Origin: a virus
IMG/VR virus record: IMGVR_UViG_3300034190_001469
Location: 1 to 21,335 of that record
Reading direction: 5' to 3' (one strand)
DNA: 21,335 nt
The notes beneath the pieces are model-generated. The model saw only the letters and a list, made by a program, of their open reading frames with translations, searched no databases and was not told the DNA's origin. Position numbers and translations under genes: made by a program. Position 1 is the stretch's first letter, and each line of letters opens with the position of its first letter. This document shows positions 3,973 to 19,347 of the stretch, piece by piece.

Positions 3973-4218
3973 TCATGTTCTTCTAGGTTTTCTCTTTGGC
4001 TGCATACGCCTATTCGCTCTTTTAGATATTACGGCTAGATTACTACGCCTATTATCTTGTGCATTGCCATTCTTATGATGTACTTCCATACCTTTTGGTG
4101 GTTTTAATTTACTATTAGCAGCATTACGTCCTGCCCTACGTTTCTTTTGTTTAGGTTTAGCATGATACTCGTCATACTCTTTCCTATAGTTGCGCTTTCG
4201 TTTAGCTGTAGGAGCCAC
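3973..4218 (-). CDS. Mini HNH endonuclease-like protein (81 aa)
   Basis: A small, highly basic protein with an HNH-type core: MEVHHKNGNAQDNRRSNL around residues 44-61, giving H47-H48, D55-N56 and N60 at the usual spacing. HNH proteins next to terminase genes assist packaging-linked cleavage in HK97-type phages, and the position near the terminase operon fits, although here they are separated by three genes. The basic N-terminus (about 40 residues) lacks the CxxC zinc pairs seen in larger HNH enzymes. It starts with GTG at 4218, inside the 3' end of the upstream gene (17-bp overlap). A homing-type HNH is the alternative. Confidence 0.72.
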   Translation of the reverse strand: MAPTAKRKRNYRKEYDEYHAKPKQKKRRAGRNAANSKLKPPKGMEVHHKNGNAQDNRRSNLAVISKRANRRMQPKRKPRRT

Positions 4219-4450: not shown

Positions 4451-4463
4451 ACCCTAATAAAAG

Positions 4464-4499
4464 AAAGGGGGAGGTAACTGCTTAACCTTCAACCCCTTT
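4464..4499 (-). terminator. Terminator-like hairpin in the leader of the leftward operon
   Basis: Read leftward, AAAGGGG pairs with CCCCTTT (7 bp), then after an uneven internal loop AGGT pairs with ACCT, with a nine-base loop. The stem is followed by a T-rich run (TTTCTTTTATT) shortly before the start of the 82-residue gene. It lies between the promoter at 4590-4618 and the first gene, so it could act as an attenuator or antitermination target. It could alternatively terminate leakage from the left; orientation is not proven. Confidence 0.4.
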
Positions 4500-4518
4500 A
4501 AATGCAATCACTGGACCC

Positions 4519-4536
4519 TAGAAGGTCATACTTCTA
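4519..4536 (-). promoter_or_regulatory. Leader stem-loop upstream of leftward operon
   Basis: TAGAAG and CTTCTA form a perfect six-base-pair stem around a six-base loop, about 20 bp upstream (in transcript order) of the terminator-like hairpin at 4464-4499. Two consecutive hairpins in the leader fit an RNA-regulated leader; the function is inferred only from layout. Confidence 0.35.
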
Positions 4537-4589
4537 ACCACGAACCCCTCAAGATAAAGATTAAAAGTACGCAGTTTTATTAGTTTCGT

Positions 4590-4618
4590 ATTATATCATA
4601 TGTATATATCACTGTCAA
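4590..4618 (-). promoter_or_regulatory. Leftward sigma-70 promoter, exact consensus (proximal)
   Basis: Read on the minus strand: TTGACA (4618-4613), 17-bp spacer, TATAAT (4595-4590). Both hexamers and the spacing match the consensus exactly. A transcript would start near 4583 and reach the 82-residue gene after a leader of about 130 bases. Confidence 0.85.
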
Positions 4619-4646
4619 GTAAAAAATGATACTAATAACAATAATG

Positions 4647-4676
4647 TTTACACATAGTAGCAATATTATATATAAT
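4647..4676 (+). promoter_or_regulatory. Rightward sigma-70-type promoter
   Basis: TTTACA (4647-4652), 18-bp spacer, TATAAT (4671-4676). It is the first of two tandem rightward promoters that share the block TTTACA-(C/T)-ATAGTAG 46 bp apart. A transcript from here would carry a leader of roughly 830 bases before the first rightward gene. Confidence 0.55.
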
Positions 4677-4692
4677 AAAGAGTACATATGTG

Positions 4693-4722
4693 TTTACATA
4701 TAGTAGTTATATAGTGTATATT
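4693..4722 (+). promoter_or_regulatory. Rightward sigma-70-type promoter (second tandem copy)
   Basis: TTTACA (4693-4698), 18-bp spacer, TATATT (4717-4722). It repeats the arrangement of the promoter 46 bp upstream and lies between the two leftward consensus promoters, so opposing transcription would interfere. Confidence 0.5.
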
Positions 4723-4777
4723 ATAGTATAATACATATACTCTGTATATAGTCTCGCTGATGCTCGACTAAAAAGTG

Positions 4778-4806
4778 ATTATATCACGAATATACTAGTT
4801 TGTCAA
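4778..4806 (-). promoter_or_regulatory. Leftward sigma-70 promoter, exact consensus (distal)
   Basis: Read on the minus strand: TTGACA (4806-4801), 17-bp spacer, TATAAT (4783-4778). This is a second perfect consensus promoter 188 bp behind the first. Its -10 sits inside the small dyad GTGAT/ATCAC at 4775-4787, which could be an operator. Confidence 0.85.
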
Positions 4807-4885
4807 GTGTTTTATTAGTATAGTACGAATATTACCCTATACCCCGACTTCTTGTACTATTATTTTACTGTTTTATATCAAGGTG

Positions 4886-4915
4886 TTGACAAGCTATTTT
4901 CGATAATTTTGTATA
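4886..4915 (+). promoter_or_regulatory. Possible rightward promoter
   Basis: A consensus -35 TTGACA (4886-4891) is followed after 18 bp by TGTATA (4910-4915), a weaker -10. Downstream there is a TATATATATAA stretch and a small stem (TAGCC/GGCTA, 4934-4950). Confidence 0.45.
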
Positions 4916-5080
4916 ACGGTATATATATAACGTATAGCCCTGCCGTGGCTACCGCGTGGCCCTACTTGACCTGATTTTAATTAATTACCTATCAAATTAG
5001 TTTCGACTTTACCTAAAATTTTAGACAAATTTGTATTACAATTGATTAGTATTTGACTCAAACCTGACGAAATAATATTA

Positions 5081-5097
5081 TTGGCACGGATTTTGCA
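5081..5097 (+). promoter_or_regulatory. Sigma-54-type promoter, full consensus match
   Basis: TTGGCACGGATTTTGCA matches the published sigma-54 consensus (YTGGCACGrNNNTTGCW) at every defined position; the invariant GG (5083-5084) and GC (5095-5096) are exactly 12 bp apart. A start near 5108, rightward, is implied. The match is seen directly; use by host RpoN is inference. Confidence 0.6.
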
Positions 5098-5147
5098 TAC
5101 CACCACATATATAATTCTGTGTACCATATCTGTGATGTATGTATTAA

Positions 5148-5255
5148 CTAACATAGTTAGTATAGACTAACTTAGTTTAACTGTATGAATAAAGTTAGTA
5201 TAGACTAACATTGTTAATAGATACTAATAGTGTTAGTATAACCTAACATAGTTAG
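5148..5255. repeat. Three-copy dyad array with 38-bp period
   Basis: GTTAGTATAGACTAAC occurs exactly at 5156-5171 and 5194-5209, and as GTTAGTATAACCTAAC at 5232-5247: starts are 38 bp apart each time. Each is an inverted repeat (GTTAGT/ACTAAC in the exact copies). The array is bounded on both sides by another dyad, CTAACATAGTTAG, at 5148-5160 and 5243-5255. Such arrays bind dimeric regulators or replication initiators; it lies 90-200 bp upstream of the second sigma-54-like site, where enhancer sites usually are. Confidence 0.85.
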
Positions 5256-5261
5256 TCAAAC

Positions 5262-5339
5262 CTATCACGGTCTGCGACCCTATCATAGTATAGGCTTCGC
5301 CTATCATTTTTCTATCATGACGGAACTGCGTTCCTATCA
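5262..5339. repeat. CTATCA / mini-hairpin cluster A
   Basis: Five CTATCA copies start at 5262, 5280, 5301, 5312 and 5334. Three follow tiny hairpins with three-base loops: GGTC-TGC-GACC (5269-5279), ATAGGC-TTC-GCCTAT (5290-5304) and GGAAC-TGC-GTTCC (5322-5334). Stem sequences differ but stay complementary, while the loop closing is always C-GNA-G when read on the minus strand. A related cluster lies at 7627-7715. Confidence 0.85.
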
Positions 5340-5343
5340 AAAG

Positions 5344-5360
5344 TTGGCATGGATCTTGCA
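5344..5360 (+). promoter_or_regulatory. Sigma-54-like promoter, one mismatch
   Basis: TTGGCATGGATCTTGCA matches the sigma-54 consensus with a single change (CACG to CATG); GG at 5346-5347 and GC at 5358-5359 are 12 bp apart. A start near 5371 would give a leader of about 145 bases to the gene at 5517. A partial copy of the block, GCATGGATC, recurs 27 bp downstream (5374-5382). Confidence 0.5.
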
Positions 5361-5447
5361 TAGAAAATCGACTGCATGGATCATATATGTGTTGAGTCTC
5401 GACTCGGACAGATCGTGTTTTCATCACATATGTGTCGCACTTTTCTA

Positions 5448-5476
5448 TTTACACTATTAGTACTATTTGCTATATT
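5448..5476 (+). promoter_or_regulatory. Rightward sigma-70-type promoter of the small-gene cassette
   Basis: TTTACA (5448-5453), 17-bp spacer, TATATT (5471-5476), with transcription expected to start about 34 bases before the ATG at 5517. A perfect palindrome CACATATGTG (5425-5434) lies just upstream and may be an operator. Confidence 0.55.
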
Positions 5477-5516
5477 AAATCATCAAAAGAACTAGCAAAA
5501 AAAGGATGTTGCAAAA

Positions 5517-5774
5517 ATGACACAGTTGGGATCAATAGAACACTTCGAGAAAATCTTTAATAAAATAGAAAAGACTGCCGAAACTCGCATTGAAGAGTTG
5601 GAACTAGAAATTGCAAAACTAAAACATTATCATAAATTAGAATTAGAAAATTATACCGATGAAATTAAGAGTCTTAAAGACTACATAAAAAAAGATAAAC
5701 AGTACATAGAATATGTTGAAAATAAATATTATGAATTAGAAAAAGAAATAATTGAATTAAAAAAGACTGACTAA
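5517..5774 (+). CDS. Small coiled-coil protein (85 aa)
   Basis: Not recognised. From about residue 8 to the end it is almost all charged and leucine/isoleucine heptads (for example IEELELEIAKLKHYHKLELE), giving one long coiled coil, so it probably dimerises. AAGGA lies about 11 bases before the ATG. It is the first gene of the cassette and is followed by a conserved hairpin leader and a second small coiled-coil gene. Its lysine and asparagine codons are almost all AAA and AAT/AAC. No catalytic or DNA-binding signature is visible. Confidence 0.7.
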   Translation: MTQLGSIEHFEKIFNKIEKTAETRIEELELEIAKLKHYHKLELENYTDEIKSLKDYIKKDKQYIEYVENKYYELEKEIIELKKTD

Positions 5775-5775
5775 A

Positions 5776-5834
5776 AATATTATCAACGGGCTGGTGCAAT
5801 ACTGTATCAGCCCACAACACAAGGAAAAAATAAA
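5776..5834 (+). promoter_or_regulatory. Duplicated hairpin leader, copy 1
   Basis: GGGCTG (5788-5793) pairs with CAGCCC (5808-5813); the stem can extend inward with wobble pairs around loop ATAC to about 11 bp. It is flanked by ATTATCAAC and ACAACACAAGG and ends at the ATG of the next gene. Copy 2 at 6009-6066 has the same flanks and compensatory stem changes. Confidence 0.7.
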
Positions 5835-6008
5835 ATGATACATTCCAGCAAAATAGATCTAGCAAAAATTAGAGACTTGCAAGAAAAAGTTGAGCGGTTA
5901 GAATTAGAAATATCAAGACAAAAATTGGAACTAACATCTTTGAAATTCGGAACCAAGAACTACAAAAACTTTATGACTGAAAACTTTGACATTAACGACT
6001 ACGTATAA
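5835..6008 (+). CDS. Small coiled-coil protein (57 aa)
   Basis: Not recognised. A short frame starting MIHSSKIDLAKIRDL; residues about 9-37 form heptad-type coiled coil (LQEKVERLELEISRQKLEL), and the tail is acidic and aromatic (NFDINDYV). It begins directly after the first copy of the duplicated hairpin leader with AAGGA as ribosome site, and ends just before the second copy; this strict leader-gene-leader-gene order supports it. It may be a partner or paralogue of the 85-residue coiled-coil protein upstream, but the sequences are too simple to tell. Confidence 0.6.
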   Translation: MIHSSKIDLAKIRDLQEKVERLELEISRQKLELTSLKFGTKNYKNFMTENFDINDYV

Positions 6009-6066
6009 TATTATCAACGGGCCGATGCAATATCGTGTCGGCCCAACAACACAAGGGAAAAATAAA
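6009..6066 (+). promoter_or_regulatory. Duplicated hairpin leader, copy 2
   Basis: GGGCCGA (6019-6025) pairs with TCGGCCC (6038-6044), extended by U-G, G-U and C-G pairs inside. Compared with copy 1, a T-A pair is replaced by C-G and a G-T pair by A-T, while flanks and the AAGG-GAAAAATAAA ribosome-site segment are nearly identical. This pattern indicates a conserved RNA structure controlling the following gene. Confidence 0.7.
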
Positions 6067-6516
6067 ATGTGTAATTTTAATCATACTACTAGCCAAGTTA
6101 GACTTCAAGCCGATACATGGATCAATAAGGGTTTACCATTTGGACGCTATAACTATCTCGTAAACATTCGTGAGATTGAATCTAAAATTCAAACATACTG
6201 GACTAAAACCGGAACGTATGTCGAGAATAATGGCAAGGGATACATAGCAAGATCAGCCCGTAAAAACTCCCATGCATTAAGTTGGTTCTTCGATCTATTC
6301 AATGGTAATTATGCCGCTTATCGACAAGCTAAAAAACAATATGACAGTGCGTCTATGACTGTATCGGAGATGTTAGAATATAACAGACAGTTAAAACGTG
6401 TTCATGTTGCAATGCAAAACAAAAAAACAGTTAGAATATCAGCGAAACAAGCTAAACATTTTTCGGGATTGTTGCGCGATAAACTAACAGCCAAGGGTCA
6501 TAAAATCGCTTCATAG
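6067..6516 (+). CDS. Hypothetical protein (149 aa)
   Basis: Not recognised. The start at 6067 is chosen because it follows the second hairpin leader and an AAGGG ribosome site in the same arrangement as the preceding gene; an in-frame ATG at 5986 would lie inside the upstream gene and leader. The product is basic and mostly helical, with an aromatic patch (SWFFDLFNGNYAAY) near residues 72-85 and a C-terminal basic helix region (SAKQAKHFSGLLRDKL). The basic charge is compatible with nucleic-acid binding, but there is no clear motif. It is followed by a hairpin with a T-run. Confidence 0.7.
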   Translation: MCNFNHTTSQVRLQADTWINKGLPFGRYNYLVNIREIESKIQTYWTKTGTYVENNGKGYIARSARKNSHALSWFFDLFNGNYAAYRQAKKQYDSASMTVSEMLEYNRQLKRVHVAMQNKKTVRISAKQAKHFSGLLRDKLTAKGHKIAS

Positions 6517-6537
6517 ATCCCCTGTGTTAACTCTATC

Positions 6538-6584
6538 GACTGGCTTATTATGGAGGAAATAGGCCAGTCTCTTTTTTCCTCCAT
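6538..6584 (+). terminator. Terminator-like hairpin interleaved with a second stem
   Basis: GACTGGC (6538-6544) pairs with GCCAGTC (6563-6569), followed by TCTTTTTT: a plausible intrinsic terminator with an 18-base loop. The loop strand ATGGAGGAAA (6550-6559) is perfectly complementary to TTTCCTCCAT (6575-6584), which overlaps the T-run. The two stems interleave, so they form a pseudoknot or exclude each other, as in an attenuator. The loop strand also contains GGAGG. Confidence 0.6.
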
Positions 6585-6601
6585 TAACTAAGGAATTAAT
6601 T

Positions 6602-6778
6602 ATGACAATACGAATCAAACCATTTTATAACGATATTAGAGATTTTCACCATGATGTATATTCTCCCGAAAATTCAGATATGTTGCAAGATCAATATAGA
6701 CAAGAACAATTAGATGTTATAGATTCACAATGGGATGCAATCTTGCATCTTGATCTAGAAAAACTAATAGGGAGATAA
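6602..6778 (+). CDS. Small hypothetical protein (58 aa)
   Basis: Not recognised. An acidic frame beginning MTIRIKPFYNDIRDF and ending LHLDLEKLIGR; AAGGA lies about 8 bases before its ATG. It directly follows the terminator-like interleaved hairpin, so its expression may depend on readthrough, and it ends four bases before the gp88-like gene. Predicted helical in its second half (QYRQEQLDVIDSQWDAI). Supported by good spacing, ribosome site and gene packing rather than by homology. Confidence 0.55.
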   Translation: MTIRIKPFYNDIRDFHHDVYSPENSDMLQDQYRQEQLDVIDSQWDAILHLDLEKLIGR

Positions 6779-6782
6779 GACC

Positions 6783-7487
6783 ATGAAACTACTTGATACT
6801 ACTGGTAATAATACCAAACTACGAAAGAACAACAAAGATATAAAGATTCGTGTCGCTGGTTTATCGCTATATCCTATTGATACTCGTGTTTGTCCATATC
6901 AGAATATAGCACAATGCAAAACACCTTGTTTATCTGATTCGGGTTTCGCTAAAGTTTATAAATCGGTTAACCAAGCCAGAAAAGCAAAGACTGATTTCTA
7001 CTTAAACGACAGGGAAAACTTTATTATTCAATTAAAAAACGAACTAACTAATTTTCAGAAGTTATGCAAGAAACAACAAGTTATTCCATATATCCGACTC
7101 AATGTTATTAGTGACATACAATGGGAATTAAAAGCTAATGGATCTATTCCGCAATCATTCCCTAATATCAATTTCTTTGATTATACCAAGATAGCAAAGA
7201 GACTAGGCAAAACGCCAGACAACTATGAATTAATGTTTTCTTATTCCAATGCCCTAGCATATCAACAATCTGTGAGAAAAGCGTTAAAGACTGACGTTCC
7301 AATATCGGTGGTATTTTTTGGGAATATGCCTAATAGGTTTATGGGAAAAGAAGTGGTTGACGGTGATTCAAGCGATATCGTAAACCTGTCTCATAAAAAT
7401 AAAATTGTCGGATTGAAATATAAATCTGTCGGTGATAAAATCAACCCTATTGATTCAACCTTTATCGTAAATATGGAGAGCCTATGA
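6783..7487 (+). CDS. Phage gp88-type family protein of unknown function (234 aa)
   Basis: The layout resembles phage proteins often labelled gp88-like: an N-terminal cysteine cluster (CPYQNIAQCKTPC, about residues 37-49) after an LSLYP motif, then RLNVISDIQW, then FFDYTK, then a serine-containing FSYSNAL strand and near the C-terminus MGKEVVDGDSSD. In that family the same order of cysteines, R-x-N/H-SD, YTK and S motifs is kept; no biochemical function is established to my knowledge. The clustered cysteines suggest metal binding. It is the only gene in the 5517-7573 cassette with recognisable relatives, and its stop overlaps the ATG of the following membrane peptide (ATGA). Confidence 0.6.
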   Translation: MKLLDTTGNNTKLRKNNKDIKIRVAGLSLYPIDTRVCPYQNIAQCKTPCLSDSGFAKVYKSVNQARKAKTDFYLNDRENFIIQLKNELTNFQKLCKKQQVIPYIRLNVISDIQWELKANGSIPQSFPNINFFDYTKIAKRLGKTPDNYELMFSYSNALAYQQSVRKALKTDVPISVVFFGNMPNRFMGKEVVDGDSSDIVNLSHKNKIVGLKYKSVGDKINPIDSTFIVNMESL

Positions 7488-7573
7488 TACTAGAAAAAAT
7501 TGCATTTCTTGCACTAACATTATTTATTTATGGATTATTCATTTACATTCTAAACAAAAGTTTGGAGAGATAA
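7484..7573 (+). CDS. Membrane peptide (29 aa)
   Basis: A very short frame coupled by a 4-bp ATGA overlap to the gene before it. Almost the whole product is one hydrophobic helix (IAFLALTLFIYGLFIYIL) ending in a basic, polar tail. Its ribosome site is GGAGA inside the upstream gene. The coupling and clean hydrophobicity support it being translated; its role is unknown. Confidence 0.45.
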   Translation: MILEKIAFLALTLFIYGLFIYILNKSLER

Positions 7574-7579
7574 AAAAAT

Positions 7580-7625
7580 AATTAGCTAGGATTTATATAA
7601 AATTTTATGTAAATTCTAGCTAATT
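7580..7625 (+). terminator. 46-bp near-perfect palindrome closing the cassette
   Basis: AATTAGCTAG (7580-7589) and CTAGCTAATT (7616-7625) are the outer arms; inside, ATTTA/TAAAT and a perfect ATAAAATTTTAT centre complete a dyad of 23 paired positions. The only two deviations (7590/7615 and 7596/7609) are G-T, so they are wobble pairs in a rightward RNA but mismatches in a leftward one. The stem is AT-rich and lacks a good downstream T-run rightward, so terminator is only the best guess; mRNA 3' end protection is an alternative. Confidence 0.55.
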
Positions 7626-7626
7626 C

Positions 7627-7715
7627 CTATCAAAATTTTCTATCATAAGGTGTCTGCGACCCTATCATATATATGTTACTATCATGTTTCGCATCTGCCG
7701 ACGCATTTGCTATCA
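7627..7715. repeat. CTATCA / mini-hairpin cluster B
   Basis: Five CTATCA copies start at 7627, 7640, 7662, 7679 and 7710. The third follows GTC-TGC-GAC (7652-7660). The block GTCTGCGACCCTATCATA is identical at 7652-7669 and 5270-5287, and TTCCTATCAAAA is identical at 7624-7635 and 5331-5342. Like cluster A, it lies just upstream of a rightward promoter and gene block. Confidence 0.85.
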
Positions 7716-7735
7716 TCTGCCGACGCATCTGCCGA
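7692..7735. repeat. Short direct repeats CATCTGCCGACGCAT
   Basis: CATCTGCCGACGCAT occurs at 7692-7706 and 7714-7728, and its first ten bases again at 7726-7735, overlapping the second copy. The repeat is GC-rich in an otherwise AT-rich stretch and is interrupted by one CTATCA. It was not seen elsewhere in the window. Confidence 0.85.
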
Positions 7736-7757: not shown

Positions 7758-7786
7758 TTTACTTTATAATTATATTGTGGTAAACT
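7758..7786 (+). promoter_or_regulatory. Possible rightward promoter
   Basis: TTTACT (7758-7763), 17-bp spacer, TAAACT (7781-7786), about 36 bases before the ATG at 7822. Distances to the downstream gene and to the CTATCA cluster upstream resemble those of the promoter at 5448-5476, but the -10 matches only four of six positions. Confidence 0.35.
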
Positions 7787-10256: not shown

Positions 10257-10450
10257 TGCCTATAAGTGATGACGATTACGATCATGTCCAAGCGATAGCT
10301 ATATGCCACTCCGACTGGAGTCCAAAAACAGCAGCAAAAGTAGCTAAAGTGATGGGTTTTACTGAGTTTGAACAATACAAAGCAGTGTATAGTGCAGGTA
10401 AAAAGGCGATAGCAACATATACACATAAAGGTAAGGTGTGGGATGATTGA
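10253..10450 (+). CDS. Small hypothetical protein (65 aa)
   Basis: Not recognised. The acidic N-terminus (SDDDYDH) is followed by WSPKTAAKVAKVMGFTEFEQYKAV, a helix pair that could be a small helix-turn-helix, though no family assignment is possible. It is coupled to both neighbours: its first codons overlap the upstream stop and its last eight bases overlap the primase start. Two adjacent ATGs (10253, 10256) are possible starts. Confidence 0.55.
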   Translation: MMPISDDDYDHVQAIAICHSDWSPKTAAKVAKVMGFTEFEQYKAVYSAGKKAIATYTHKGKVWDD

Positions 10451-11207
10451 GTTACCCGACTTTGATGAGATAGATGAAAACCAAGGCATAAGAGTTAATT
10501 GTCCTAGTTGTGGTGGGTATGGTACATTCACTGCTACGAGAGTTGATGGGAGTATTCTGTATAATTGTTACAAAGCAGGATGTTCTGTGTCTGGTAAGAA
10601 GGATGTTATGGGATCAAGCAAATATGTTAGAGAAAAATCTATCATTGCTGCTGAGCCAAATAAATATGAGTTCGATATACCAGAACACTTTTCTATTTAT
10701 TTCCCAAAGAAAATGGTTAAATATTGTAATGAGAATAATATTGATACTAATAAAGTACAACTATACTATGATGTTAAATTAGACAGAGCAGTATTTCCGA
10801 TCTTCATGGCACAACCCTCTAACTTTGACGTTCCTACTATTTGGAGAAATAAAGTGGTTGATGCTGTTGGTAGAACGCTAGGAGGATCTTGGAGTAAATG
10901 GCATAGATATGGTAACTCAGGTTTACCCTTTATTTGTGGTAATAGTGAGACTTGTTATGTTGTTGAAGACTGTGCATCTGCTGTAGCTGTATCGCAGTAT
11001 GGTACTGGACTTGCATTGCTAGGCACAAATTTATCTGATTCAATACTTGACATTGTGGTAAACTATCCTTATGTTATAGTATGTCTTGATAAAGACGCAT
11101 CTGCCAAGGCAATACAAATGAAAAATAGAATTGGACAATTTACCAAAGCTGAAGTAAGATTACTTGATGTTGACCCTAAAGAGAAACCAGAAGGAGTATT
11201 AGAATGA
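10443..11207 (+). CDS. DNA primase, zinc ribbon plus Toprim (254 aa)
   Basis: Makes RNA primers at the fork, like the primase half of T7 gp4 but as a separate protein. A zinc-binding module is at the N-terminus: C20-x2-C23 and C42-x4-C47. The Toprim domain follows: YVVEDCASAVAVSQ with the catalytic acidic residue and VIVCLDKDAS with the DxD-type metal site, joined by LLGTNLS. No helicase domain is attached; the helicase gene lies two genes downstream. Start overlaps the preceding gene by 8 bp. The stop overlaps the methyltransferase start (ATGA). Confidence 0.88.
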   Translation: MIELPDFDEIDENQGIRVNCPSCGGYGTFTATRVDGSILYNCYKAGCSVSGKKDVMGSSKYVREKSIIAAEPNKYEFDIPEHFSIYFPKKMVKYCNENNIDTNKVQLYYDVKLDRAVFPIFMAQPSNFDVPTIWRNKVVDAVGRTLGGSWSKWHRYGNSGLPFICGNSETCYVVEDCASAVAVSQYGTGLALLGTNLSDSILDIVVNYPYVIVCLDKDASAKAIQMKNRIGQFTKAEVRLLDVDPKEKPEGVLE

Positions 11208-11755
11208 CTACATACAATAGAGCTTTTTCCATGCCTAACAGTCAAACCTTTAGCATGAAACCTATTAAAGAGTTTGTGGAACATTGGATTGGTTTAGCAT
11301 ATTCTGCTGAAGATAGAAATAATCCAATTGTTGTAGATCCTTTTGCTAGAGATAGTAAGTATGGTACAATAACTAATGATATAAATACTATTACAGATGC
11401 TCATTATCATATGAAAGCAGATGATTTTCTGGATATGTTGTTGGATGATGGAGTACAAGCTGACGTTGTGTTATATGATCCACCATACAGTCCAAGACAG
11501 ATCAGTGAGTGCTACAGTGCTAGTGGTATAAAGACTACGCAACAAGACACACAGAGTAGTTTCTATACTAAAATAAAAGATCGTATCAGACCTCTTGTCA
11601 AACCTGATGGTATTGTGCTATCCTTTGGATGGAACTCTATGGGAGTTGGTAAGAAGTTTGGTAGCTATGAAGAAATACTATTGGTAACTCATGGTGGAGC
11701 GCATAACGATACAATATGTGTTGCACAAAGAAAGGATACAAACGAATATGTCTAA
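11204..11755 (+). CDS. DPPY-type DNA adenine methyltransferase-like protein (183 aa)
   Basis: Carries a catalytic DPPYSPRQ motif (residues 92-95 for DPPY) after a hydrophobic strand (ADVVLYDPPY), typical of amino-methyltransferases acting on adenine N6 or cytosine N4. An IVVDPFARD motif near residue 45 and TNDIN near residue 58 take the place of the usual FxGxG cofactor loop; a C-terminal EEILLVTHGGAHNDTI completes the phage family pattern. It is short for a methyltransferase and lacks a clear target-recognition domain. Inserted between primase and helicase with overlaps on both sides, so it is expressed with replication genes; likely role is protection from restriction. Confidence 0.75.
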   Translation: MTTYNRAFSMPNSQTFSMKPIKEFVEHWIGLAYSAEDRNNPIVVDPFARDSKYGTITNDINTITDAHYHMKADDFLDMLLDDGVQADVVLYDPPYSPRQISECYSASGIKTTQQDTQSSFYTKIKDRIRPLVKPDGIVLSFGWNSMGVGKKFGSYEEILLVTHGGAHNDTICVAQRKDTNEYV

Positions 11756-15766: not shown

Positions 15767-16151
15767 ACAACTCAATTTATTTAAAATTGAGGTAAAAAAA
15801 GAAAAGGATAATATAGTATGCAGACATTGTAAAAAAGAAAAACCCATAATGATGTTTCGATTATATAGAAGGGCAACAGGGGATCACAGACAAAGCAGAA
15901 GTACCTCATGTAAAGAATGTCAAAAATCTCATGGTAAGATAGTAGATAAAATTAGAAAAACTGCACCTCCTCAGACAACATACTGCGTTATATGTAATAA
16001 ACAAGATATAAAAACTGTCTTAGATCATTGTTATGAAACAGAAACTTTTAGAGGCTGGTTATGTCATCATTGTAATTTAGCAATCGGACTACTTGGTGAT
16101 GATGTAGAAGGTTTAACAAAAGCGTTAAAATATATAAAAAAAGAATTGTAA
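15759..16151 (+). CDS. Recombination endonuclease VII homologue (130 aa)
   Basis: T4 endonuclease VII resolves Holliday junctions and branches before packaging. The C-terminal domain is typical: CVIC (C76, C79), VLDHCYET with D89-H90, RGWLCHHCN (C102, C105, N106), then GLLGDD and a closing helix; four cysteines bind zinc and D/H/N form the HNH-like site. The N-terminal half adds CRHC (C21, C24) and CKEC (C51, C54), a probable second zinc knuckle. An in-frame ATG at 15714 is rejected because it lies in the polymerase gene. Strong lysine/arginine content fits DNA binding. A promoter follows, so it ends this transcription unit. Confidence 0.8.
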   Translation: MFEQLNLFKIEVKKEKDNIVCRHCKKEKPIMMFRLYRRATGDHRQSRSTSCKECQKSHGKIVDKIRKTAPPQTTYCVICNKQDIKTVLDHCYETETFRGWLCHHCNLAIGLLGDDVEGLTKALKYIKKEL

Positions 16152-18804: not shown

Positions 18805-19347
18805 ATGGTGTCACTTACAGAAGACTTAAATGGTTATATACATAATGAGAGTGTAGCAGATAAACTTACTACGGGAGGAATGATACCTTTGGAATTACAA
18901 GCAGATTATCTAGGTTGTCTAGAAGAATTTCAAGATGAGGTAACAAAACGCTTGACAAATGCAGCAGTACATGATAGAGTATTGTTACAGAGTAGAGGTA
19001 ATTTAATTACTGAGGTAAGTAAAAATAACTTTGATCGAATGGATTTATGTCAAGAATTAATTCAAGAGGAATTAGAAGAACTTCAAGATGAATTAGATGC
19101 ACCTGAAATAAATCCAGAAAAAGTACTTAAAGAATTATGTGATGTTCTCTATGTTGTGTTTGGATTTGCTTCACGATATAAAGAGTTAAAGTTTTTACCA
19201 GAGGCATTTATACGAGTGCATCATAATAATATGACCAAAGTAACAAAAGGTCATTTTAGAGGAGATGGTAAGTTGGTTAAACCTGCTGACCACAAACAAC
19301 CCGACTTGTCGGATTTAATTGAGAAAGGAGTAAACTATGGAAGCTAG
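18805..19347 (+). CDS. MazG-like nucleotide pyrophosphohydrolase (180 aa)
   Basis: The middle of the protein carries the metal-binding pattern of MazG/HisE-type enzymes, which hydrolyse NTPs or alarmones to monophosphates: QELIQEELEELQDEL (E88-E92 region) and KELCDVLYVVFGFA (E110, D113), followed by a VHHNNMTKV loop that usually binds base or phosphate. The N-terminal ~75 residues are unlike MazG and not recognised. Such enzymes are frequent in marine phages and are thought to adjust the nucleotide pool. ATG follows AAGGAAGGT. The next gene starts inside its end (11-bp overlap). Confidence 0.7.
   Translation: MVSLTEDLNGYIHNESVADKLTTGGMIPLELQADYLGCLEEFQDEVTKRLTNAAVHDRVLLQSRGNLITEVSKNNFDRMDLCQELIQEELEELQDELDAPEINPEKVLKELCDVLYVVFGFASRYKELKFLPEAFIRVHHNNMTKVTKGHFRGDGKLVKPADHKQPDLSDLIEKGVNYGS

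Follow-up and report, generated by a model that had tools for sequence, protein, structure and literature searches.

The window analysed here is the complete 21,335-bp IMG/VR contig IMGVR_UViG_3300034190_001469, a fragment of a marine podovirus of the HMO-2011 type in which the hexamer CTATCA is gathered into two clusters. Leftward genes on the terminase side and rightward genes leading into replication diverge from the non-coding region 4451-5516, and cluster 1 lies inside it. Cluster 2 is located between a short operon ending in a GP88-family gene (PF17338) and the replication operon, whose first gene is pyrimidine-dimer glycosylase-like (PF03013). Some CTATCA copies are preceded by small hairpins, and contigs of related phages end within the same hexamer, at CT^ATCA. 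The features are collected in Table 1.

Table 1. Positions of the arrays, hairpins, proposed interruption sites and neighbouring features in the window
Feature	Position	Strand	Remarks
Cluster 1	5262..5339	+	CTATCA at 5262, 5280, 5301, 5312, 5334; three mini-hairpins
Cluster 2	7627..7715	+	CTATCA at 7627, 7640, 7662, 7679, 7710
Mini-hairpin h1	5269..5279	-	GGTC-TGC-GACC; minus loop GCA
Mini-hairpin h2	5290..5304	-	ATAGGC-TTC-GCCTAT; minus loop GAA; loop TGC in L214-L218
Mini-hairpin h3	5322..5334	-	GGAAC-TGC-GTTCC; minus loop GCA; minus loop GTA in L006
Mini-hairpin h4	7652..7660	-	GTC-TGC-GAC
Last cluster 2 site, CT^ATCATCTGCCGA	7710..7723	+	L001 starts at A; homologous starts in G001 and L002 (as CTATCC)
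CATCTGCCGA, three copies	7692..7735	+	Second half of the proposed interruption motif
Lone site, CT^ATCATTGCTGCTG	10639..10653	+	In primase ORF (10443-11207); L062 and L064 start at A (10641)
Lone site, CT^ATCATGTACTGCTG	18962..18977	-	In ORF 18805-19347; L051 and L061 end at A (18975)
Small HNH protein	3973..4218	-	Near terminase genes; candidate nicking enzyme
Endonuclease VII-like protein	15771..16151	+	Second candidate enzyme
Sigma54-type promoter-like TGGCACGGATTTTGCA	5082..5097	+	Upstream of cluster 1
Palindrome repeats GTTAGT-N4-ACTAAC	5147..5253	+	Period 19/38 bp; operator-like; adjoin cluster 1
Sigma54-type promoter-like TGGCATGGATCTTGCA	5345..5360	+	Abuts cluster 1
Sigma70-like promoter TTTACA-17-TATATT	5448..5476	+	Downstream of cluster 1
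Sigma70-like promoter TTTACT-17-TAAACT	7758..7786	+	Downstream of cluster 2; read from sequence

Conserved CTATCA arrays and covarying mini-hairpins

CTATCA is not enriched in the window as a whole (13 copies against 16.8 expected); the signal is its clustering, as 10 of the 13 copies fall within about 170 bp, all on the same strand. The spacing between copies in the clusters is irregular, from 7 to 41 bp. The earlier note had described ten copies in two groups of five and an exact 18-bp block common to both; every coordinate proved correct, and the block, GTCTGCGACCCTATCATA, occupies 5270-5287 and 7652-7669.

The clusters are not a peculiarity of one contig. They recur in about ten relatives of the window phage, mostly at the same two control regions. 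Both regions carry them in L003, L006 and the near-complete relative G001 (IMGVR_UViG_3300030104_001707; 53,384 bp); cluster 1 stands at the same place also in L209, L213, L214, L216, L218, L219 and L232. In L007, cluster 2 is accompanied by a further cluster that precedes the GP88 gene, and cluster 2 is reduced in L232 and in L008, which retains two copies only. Outside the lineage the picture is different. The window shares gene order, position of the divergent control region and DNA polymerase with the cultured HMO-2011-type phages CRP-212, CRP-3, CRP-235 and HMO-2011 (its polymerase is closest to those of the three Roseobacter phages CRP-212, CRP-3 and CRP-235, at ~41% identity), yet similar arrays are absent from these four and from HTVC033P. 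No DNA similar to the window was found among 50,697 phage records. A search of all viral contigs for the pattern CTATCA..CTATCAT..GTGTC returned 75 stretches, among which the only arrays were four already known, the rest being mostly one coding sequence. Bacterial genomes yielded four isolated matches in 84,980, none clustered, and a mobile REP-like repeat was rejected on this ground. As separate observations, assembled relatives break inside the clusters unusually often, and the two ends of the G001 contig (L116/L117) share a 32-bp overlap that falls exactly on cluster 2.

Four of the ten clustered copies are directly preceded by hairpins with three-nucleotide loops and stems of 4, 6, 5 and 3 bp, while six have none. 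This association is unlikely to be fortuitous: stems of at least 3 bp closed by C..G occur at the hairpin offset at 1.1% of window positions (binomial P 3e-6), and of the eight GC-containing 4-bp triloop palindromes in 21 kb, three are inside cluster 1. In relatives the first hairpin reads CGTC/GACG or GCGTC/GACGC (L214, L216 and L218) or GTGC/GCAC (G001), and the fourth GTCGC-TCT-GCGAC, GTCGC-TTT-GCGAC or GTCGC-TAC-GCGAC. The stem variants of the window and relatives taken together are GGTC, CGTC, GCGTC, ATAGGC, GGAAC, GTC, GTCGC, GTGC and GATCGC. What does not vary is the closing C-G pair and the first loop base, T, with T or C as the third loop base (C-TNY-G).

Do the two sides of these stems change together? 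Across 17 hairpin variants 88% of cells are paired, compared with 60% after shuffling. The pair changes comprise 22 double-sided and no one-sided ones, 0 of 500 shuffles doing as well, and the covariation score of 0.699, against 0.175 for shuffled and at most 0.096 for slid alignments, indicates compensatory change above chance. Thus, the claim that structure kept while letters change reflects selection on the fold is borne out, even with weak cases in the third hairpins of L214 and L218, in L219 and in the second hairpin of G001 cluster 2. Other details proposed from the window alone hold less widely. The loop-to-CTATCA distances of 5, 3, 5 and 5 nt are as described, but range from 3 to 7 nt in relatives. 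Likewise, the minus-strand loop C-GNA-G, a type known from very stable DNA mini-hairpins, is right for the window, whereas relatives add TTT, TAT and TCT (AAA, ATA and AGA on the minus strand) and one four-nucleotide loop TTGC (GCAA), so that the lineage as a whole has GNA, ANA and one GNNA, a widening to C-RNA-G apart from the last. Part of this loop conservation may be due to a recurring CTGC word, which is also present past the cut site.

The same hairpins had led the earlier note to suggest single-strand promoters like those of the virion RNA polymerase (vRNAP) of phage N4. The resemblance in shape is evident: a mini-hairpin with a 3-nt loop, closed as C-GNA-G on one strand, precedes the would-be start in the same polarity, with a few conserved bases just past a stem that is free to vary. 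The N4 vRNAP promoter requires a purine at -11, G at -10, G at -8 and C at +1, its start lies at a constant distance from the hairpin, and the G and A of its hairpin loop form a sheared pair (PMC4496689). When the window hairpins, with loops GCA (three) and GAA, are read in this frame, -8 is T, G, A and T, +1C occurs in none, and three of the four combine -11C with -8T or -8A. Moreover, unlike N4 promoters, they stand in tandem arrays, most CTATCA copies having no hairpin at all, and across relatives the distance from hairpin to a fixed start drifts from 9 to 13 nt (4 to 8 nt from loop centre to CTATCA). Homologues of N4 vRNAP, RNAP1 and RNAP2 were not found by tblastn and phmmer in G001 and relatives, cultured ones included, and a Pfam search for a single-subunit RNA polymerase (PF00940), run without a positive control, gave no match. 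The largest unexplained protein of G001, a 1229-aa virion protein, was rejected as a hidden polymerase, having neither a PDB match nor recognisable RNA polymerase motifs. With the required bases broken, the spacing adrift and an N4-type enzyme undetected in a 53-kb relative, a single-stranded promoter for an N4-type or other virion RNA polymerase is a very remote prospect.

Contig ends and avoidance of the motif

An unexpected result concerns the points at which contigs stop. Among 122 distinct contig ends of the lineage with homologous upstream context, eight lie at CT^ATCA (L001, G001, L051, L061, L062, L064, L229 and L310), where 0.037 were expected (Poisson P 9e-17); the next hexamer occurs twice. 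At each of these ends uncut relatives read CT^ATCA, or, for G001, its own other end does. Ends beginning with ATCA make up 9 of 99 in the lineage and 2 of 206 in contigs of other phages; these 206 control ends disfavour a generic assembler bias. One of the nine, L226, lacks the preceding CT and was not counted as a site; nor were L002 (ATCC) and L008 (ATCA), for which the upstream context was not verifiable. Contigs sharing a site belong to different strains (L051 and L061 are 95% identical, L062 and L064 85%). The two sides of a site also behave differently. Right-hand contigs have ATCA as their very first letters, whereas five on the left-hand side run past the site, by 1 nt (L213), 4 (L219), 8 (L216), 15 (L232) and 32 (G001), an asymmetry that would result if the CTATCA strand were nicked and the ends then repaired during library preparation.

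Outside the clusters the motif is avoided. The window has three further CTATCA copies, against 16.9 expected from dinucleotides or 10.7 from a Markov model, and G003 has four (23.8 or 14.4 expected). The cultured relatives show no such avoidance, with 31 copies against 33.1 (Markov) in CRP-212, 36 against 33.7 in CRP-3 and 41 against 46.2 in HMO-2011. The only two CTATCAT copies of the window outside its clusters (10639 plus, 18977 minus) are both contig-end sites. Most sites have CTGCYG 0-4 nt downstream. Nearly all relatives that align over the primase gene retain CT^ATCAT, or a sequence close to it, and TGCYGA after it, while the encoded residues differ and CTGCCGA occupies another reading frame in G001, L065 and L232; a block kept across frames and residues points to selection on DNA. 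A separate observation concerns palindromic restriction-type hexamers, which are strongly avoided in the window and G001 (GAATTC 0 against 42.7 expected; GCTAGC, AGGCCT, GCATGC and GAGCTC 0), as might be the case in phages whose hosts have several restriction systems.

Given the conserved arrays, the covarying hairpins, the uniform orientation of the clustered copies, the avoidance of the motif elsewhere and the contigs that end at CT^ATCA, we lean, at slightly better than even, towards the interpretation that the DNA of this lineage is interrupted at specific sites built around CTATCA, often with CTGCYG 0-4 nt downstream, and that the clusters are arrays of this site. A nick, 5'-CT^ATCA(T), would be its simplest form. 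Several findings weigh against it. Later batches of contigs had 0 of 18 and then 1 of 26 ends (L310) at CT^ATCA; the motif was noticed in the same ends that were later counted, making the P value partly after the fact and leaving 1 of 44 as the independent data. Contig ends are an indirect readout, the distinct sites number about six, and left ends near sites, taken alone, exceed chance only slightly. Ten CTATCAA/G copies are tolerated in the structural-gene region of G001. The lone sites have no hairpins, and no contig ends at a hairpin-bearing CTATCA except L213, 1 nt past it, so that hairpins and cutting are connected by position alone. Finally, the sites lie on both strands (18977 on the minus, the others on the plus), unlike the nicks of tf, T5 and phiKMV.

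Two other explanations address the contig ends directly. One is that a bulky base modification at the motif stalls sequencing polymerases and contigs stop without any nick. The Mom protein of phage Mu acts on a short and degenerate sequence context. The window does encode a Mom-family protein (PF25680; 8340-8936) and a DNA methyltransferase (phrog_11619; 11204-11755), and strand-specific stops would be expected in this case too. However, with one strand blocked the other could still be read, left contigs overrunning the site are not predicted, and a 6-7-mer is unlike the Mu context; we regard modification as improbable. The other, no less improbable in our estimate, is that CT^ATCA is a degenerate cos- or pac-like cleavage site of the terminase, assisted by the neighbouring HNH protein, with cleavage chiefly at the final copy in each cluster. 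HK97-like cos phages have an HNH protein near their terminase genes in the same way, and three different phages have contigs that begin within the final site of cluster 2 (Table 1). Against packaging, sites are also present in the primase gene, in ORF 18805-19347 and in the structural region, and a packaged genome cannot be cut through all of them; in addition, many contigs cross each site.

Promoters around the arrays and possible roles

Both arrays sit where rightward operons start, and their surroundings are rich in promoter-like sequences. Two near-perfect sigma54-type promoters flank cluster 1, where 0.04 would be expected in the window (pattern GG-N10-GC with TGGCAC/TTGCA). Such promoters would be unusual for a phage, and a search for sigma54 or its activator encoded by the phage found neither. 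The boxes are kept in G001 (2461-2476 and 2522-2537 of its contig, minus strand) and L209. In most relatives the -24 half, TTGGCACG, is retained, and the -12 half is lost, shifted or shortened in L214, L216, L218, L219 and L232. Sigma70-like promoters comparable to that downstream of cluster 2 occupy the same place in L002, L007, L008 and G001. The leftward operon on the terminase side has two perfect 12/12 sigma70 promoters with extended -10 elements (minus strand, 4806-4778 and 4618-4590), and those of the rightward operons are weaker.

Other elements of this region were also noted. The operator-like palindromes beside cluster 1 vary, being GTTAGT-N4-ACTAAC in the window and L213 and GTTCTAATAGAGAAC-like in G001, with L218 also carrying palindromes there; they look like an exchanged regulator-specific module, judging from the sequences. 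A non-coding block upstream of cluster 1, ATATAACGTATAGCNCTGCCRTGGCNACCGC (~4925-4960), is conserved at the same place in G001, L209 and L232. In L218, tandem GGGATTTAAGGTCGATTTTAACT copies lie directly downstream of cluster 1, ~3545-3620 nt upstream of its terminase small subunit gene. A 39-nt intergenic repeat (5776-5814 and 6007-6045; 85% identical) sits just before the ribosome-binding sites of two small genes and forms a hairpin, GGGCTG..CAGCCC or GGGCCGA..TCGGCCC, both sides of which change.

This setting gives some substance to a cis-regulatory array that is never cut, in which CTATCA(T) would be a direct-repeat operator acting on the promoters just downstream and the palindromes would be spacers or cruciform switches. 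Winged-helix or OmpR/PhoB-like factors bind head-to-tail repeats, all clustered copies have one orientation, both clusters are upstream of a sigma70-like promoter, and cluster 1, besides adjoining the operator-like palindromes, abuts a sigma54-type promoter. On the other hand, the irregular spacing of the copies, distances to the promoter of 30 to ~110 bp and the loss of sigma54 boxes in several relatives that keep the clusters fit such an operator poorly, and it leaves CT^ATCA ends inside genes, the avoidance of CTATCA elsewhere and the site in the primase gene unexplained. We consider it unlikely, if deserving of attention. A specific version, the PhoB box (CTGTCAT repeats, 11 bp), was rejected, just one pair of copies being 11 bp apart.

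Could the element instead act in the transcript, as CUAUCA repeats with hairpins for nut-like antitermination or as a protein sponge? The orientation is fixed relative to transcription, and the hairpins fold as RNA too, folding energies for DNA and RNA not separating the strands. Yet there is no Rfam match, G-U pairs are nearly absent among 68 hairpin cells, and neither the contig ends nor the minus-strand site is explained. Furthermore, in L007 and G001 intrinsic terminators stand just upstream of a cluster; with these terminators, and with cluster 2 upstream of its promoter, cluster 2 would be poorly transcribed. An RNA element therefore appears quite improbable.

Returning to the site-specific interruption, the features above allow a tentative outline of how it might work. 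A phage or host endonuclease would recognise CTATCA in fixed orientation and cut after CT, at the lone sites, at the last copy of cluster 2 and perhaps at other cluster copies. The HNH and endonuclease VII-like proteins (Table 1) are candidates for this enzyme, if it is the phage's own. The suggestion of a HUH-nuclease or initiator target, made earlier as an alternative, survives in its first half, a nuclease target being supported by the contig ends; for the HUH part, searches for Y1_Tnp, Phage_GPA, TrwC and Relaxase found these four families absent, a host enzyme being still conceivable. The palindromes that directly precede some copies could be extruded as mini-hairpins where the DNA is negatively supercoiled or partly single-stranded. 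Their minus-strand loops (C-GNA-G, C-ANA-G or C-GNNA-G) resemble the very stable DNA type, and the hairpins might position the enzyme or prevent the region from closing. From their position next to divergent promoters and the replication operon, the arrays could regulate the access of replication or transcription machinery, or relax the DNA locally. Possible roles include the start of replication, control of transcription, relief of torsion and packaging.

A more specific proposal is that the arrays form a hairpin-guided nicking origin, in which closely spaced CT^ATCA nicks would release short plus-strand pieces and the minus-strand gap would fold into GNA mini-hairpins that load the phage replisome or RNA polymerase. 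Such an origin would serve both control regions and need neither a HUH initiator nor an RNA polymerase encoded by the phage. An origin would fit the cumulative GC skew of G001, whose minimum coincides with cluster 1, yet the genes change direction at the same point, and with this confounding the minimum is no proof. We regard the proposal as distinctly unlikely; under it, phage genome nicks would gain a function.

Comparison with known systems

HUH relaxase nic sites of the R388 type, and the hairpins of REP and IS200-type elements, resemble the proposed arrays in placing a hairpin just before a sequence that is cut after CT; the R388 nic reads ...TCT^ATAG. The lineage differs in that none of the four HUH families searched for was found, in having lone sites without a hairpin and in having loops without a cut.

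Site-specific nicks in phage genomes offer a closer comparison. Localized nicks are established in T5 and in phiKMV-like phages, and nick-less T5 mutants are viable. The nick consensus is TACT^RTGMC in phage tf (PMC3517423) and WACTRTGAC in the Rembedalsseter phage, and nicks of this kind have been known for ~50 years without an assigned function (PMC11780129). As in these four cases, the proposed CT^ATCA(T) sites would have a short consensus cut at one defined position, would be few in each genome and would be confined to one lineage, and both the tf and the present motif would be cut after CT and before a purine. What sets them apart is their presence on both strands, a second half CTGCYGA, the concentration in two intergenic arrays by promoters, the covarying mini-hairpins 5' of some copies, and the fact that they are known from contig ends only; the arrays, the hairpins and the use of both strands are new here. 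Sites on both strands keep them from being filed under the classical T5, tf and phiKMV kind, although they may still work in the same manner. If the sites are indeed nicked, the lineage would extend phage nicks to an unrelated and abundant marine group and would tie them to arrays, accompanied by covarying hairpins, where transcription and replication are controlled, making their role directly testable. The analysis also suggests that the ends of public metagenome contigs can serve as a record of DNA interruptions, from which the nick motifs of uncultured phages could be found at little cost.

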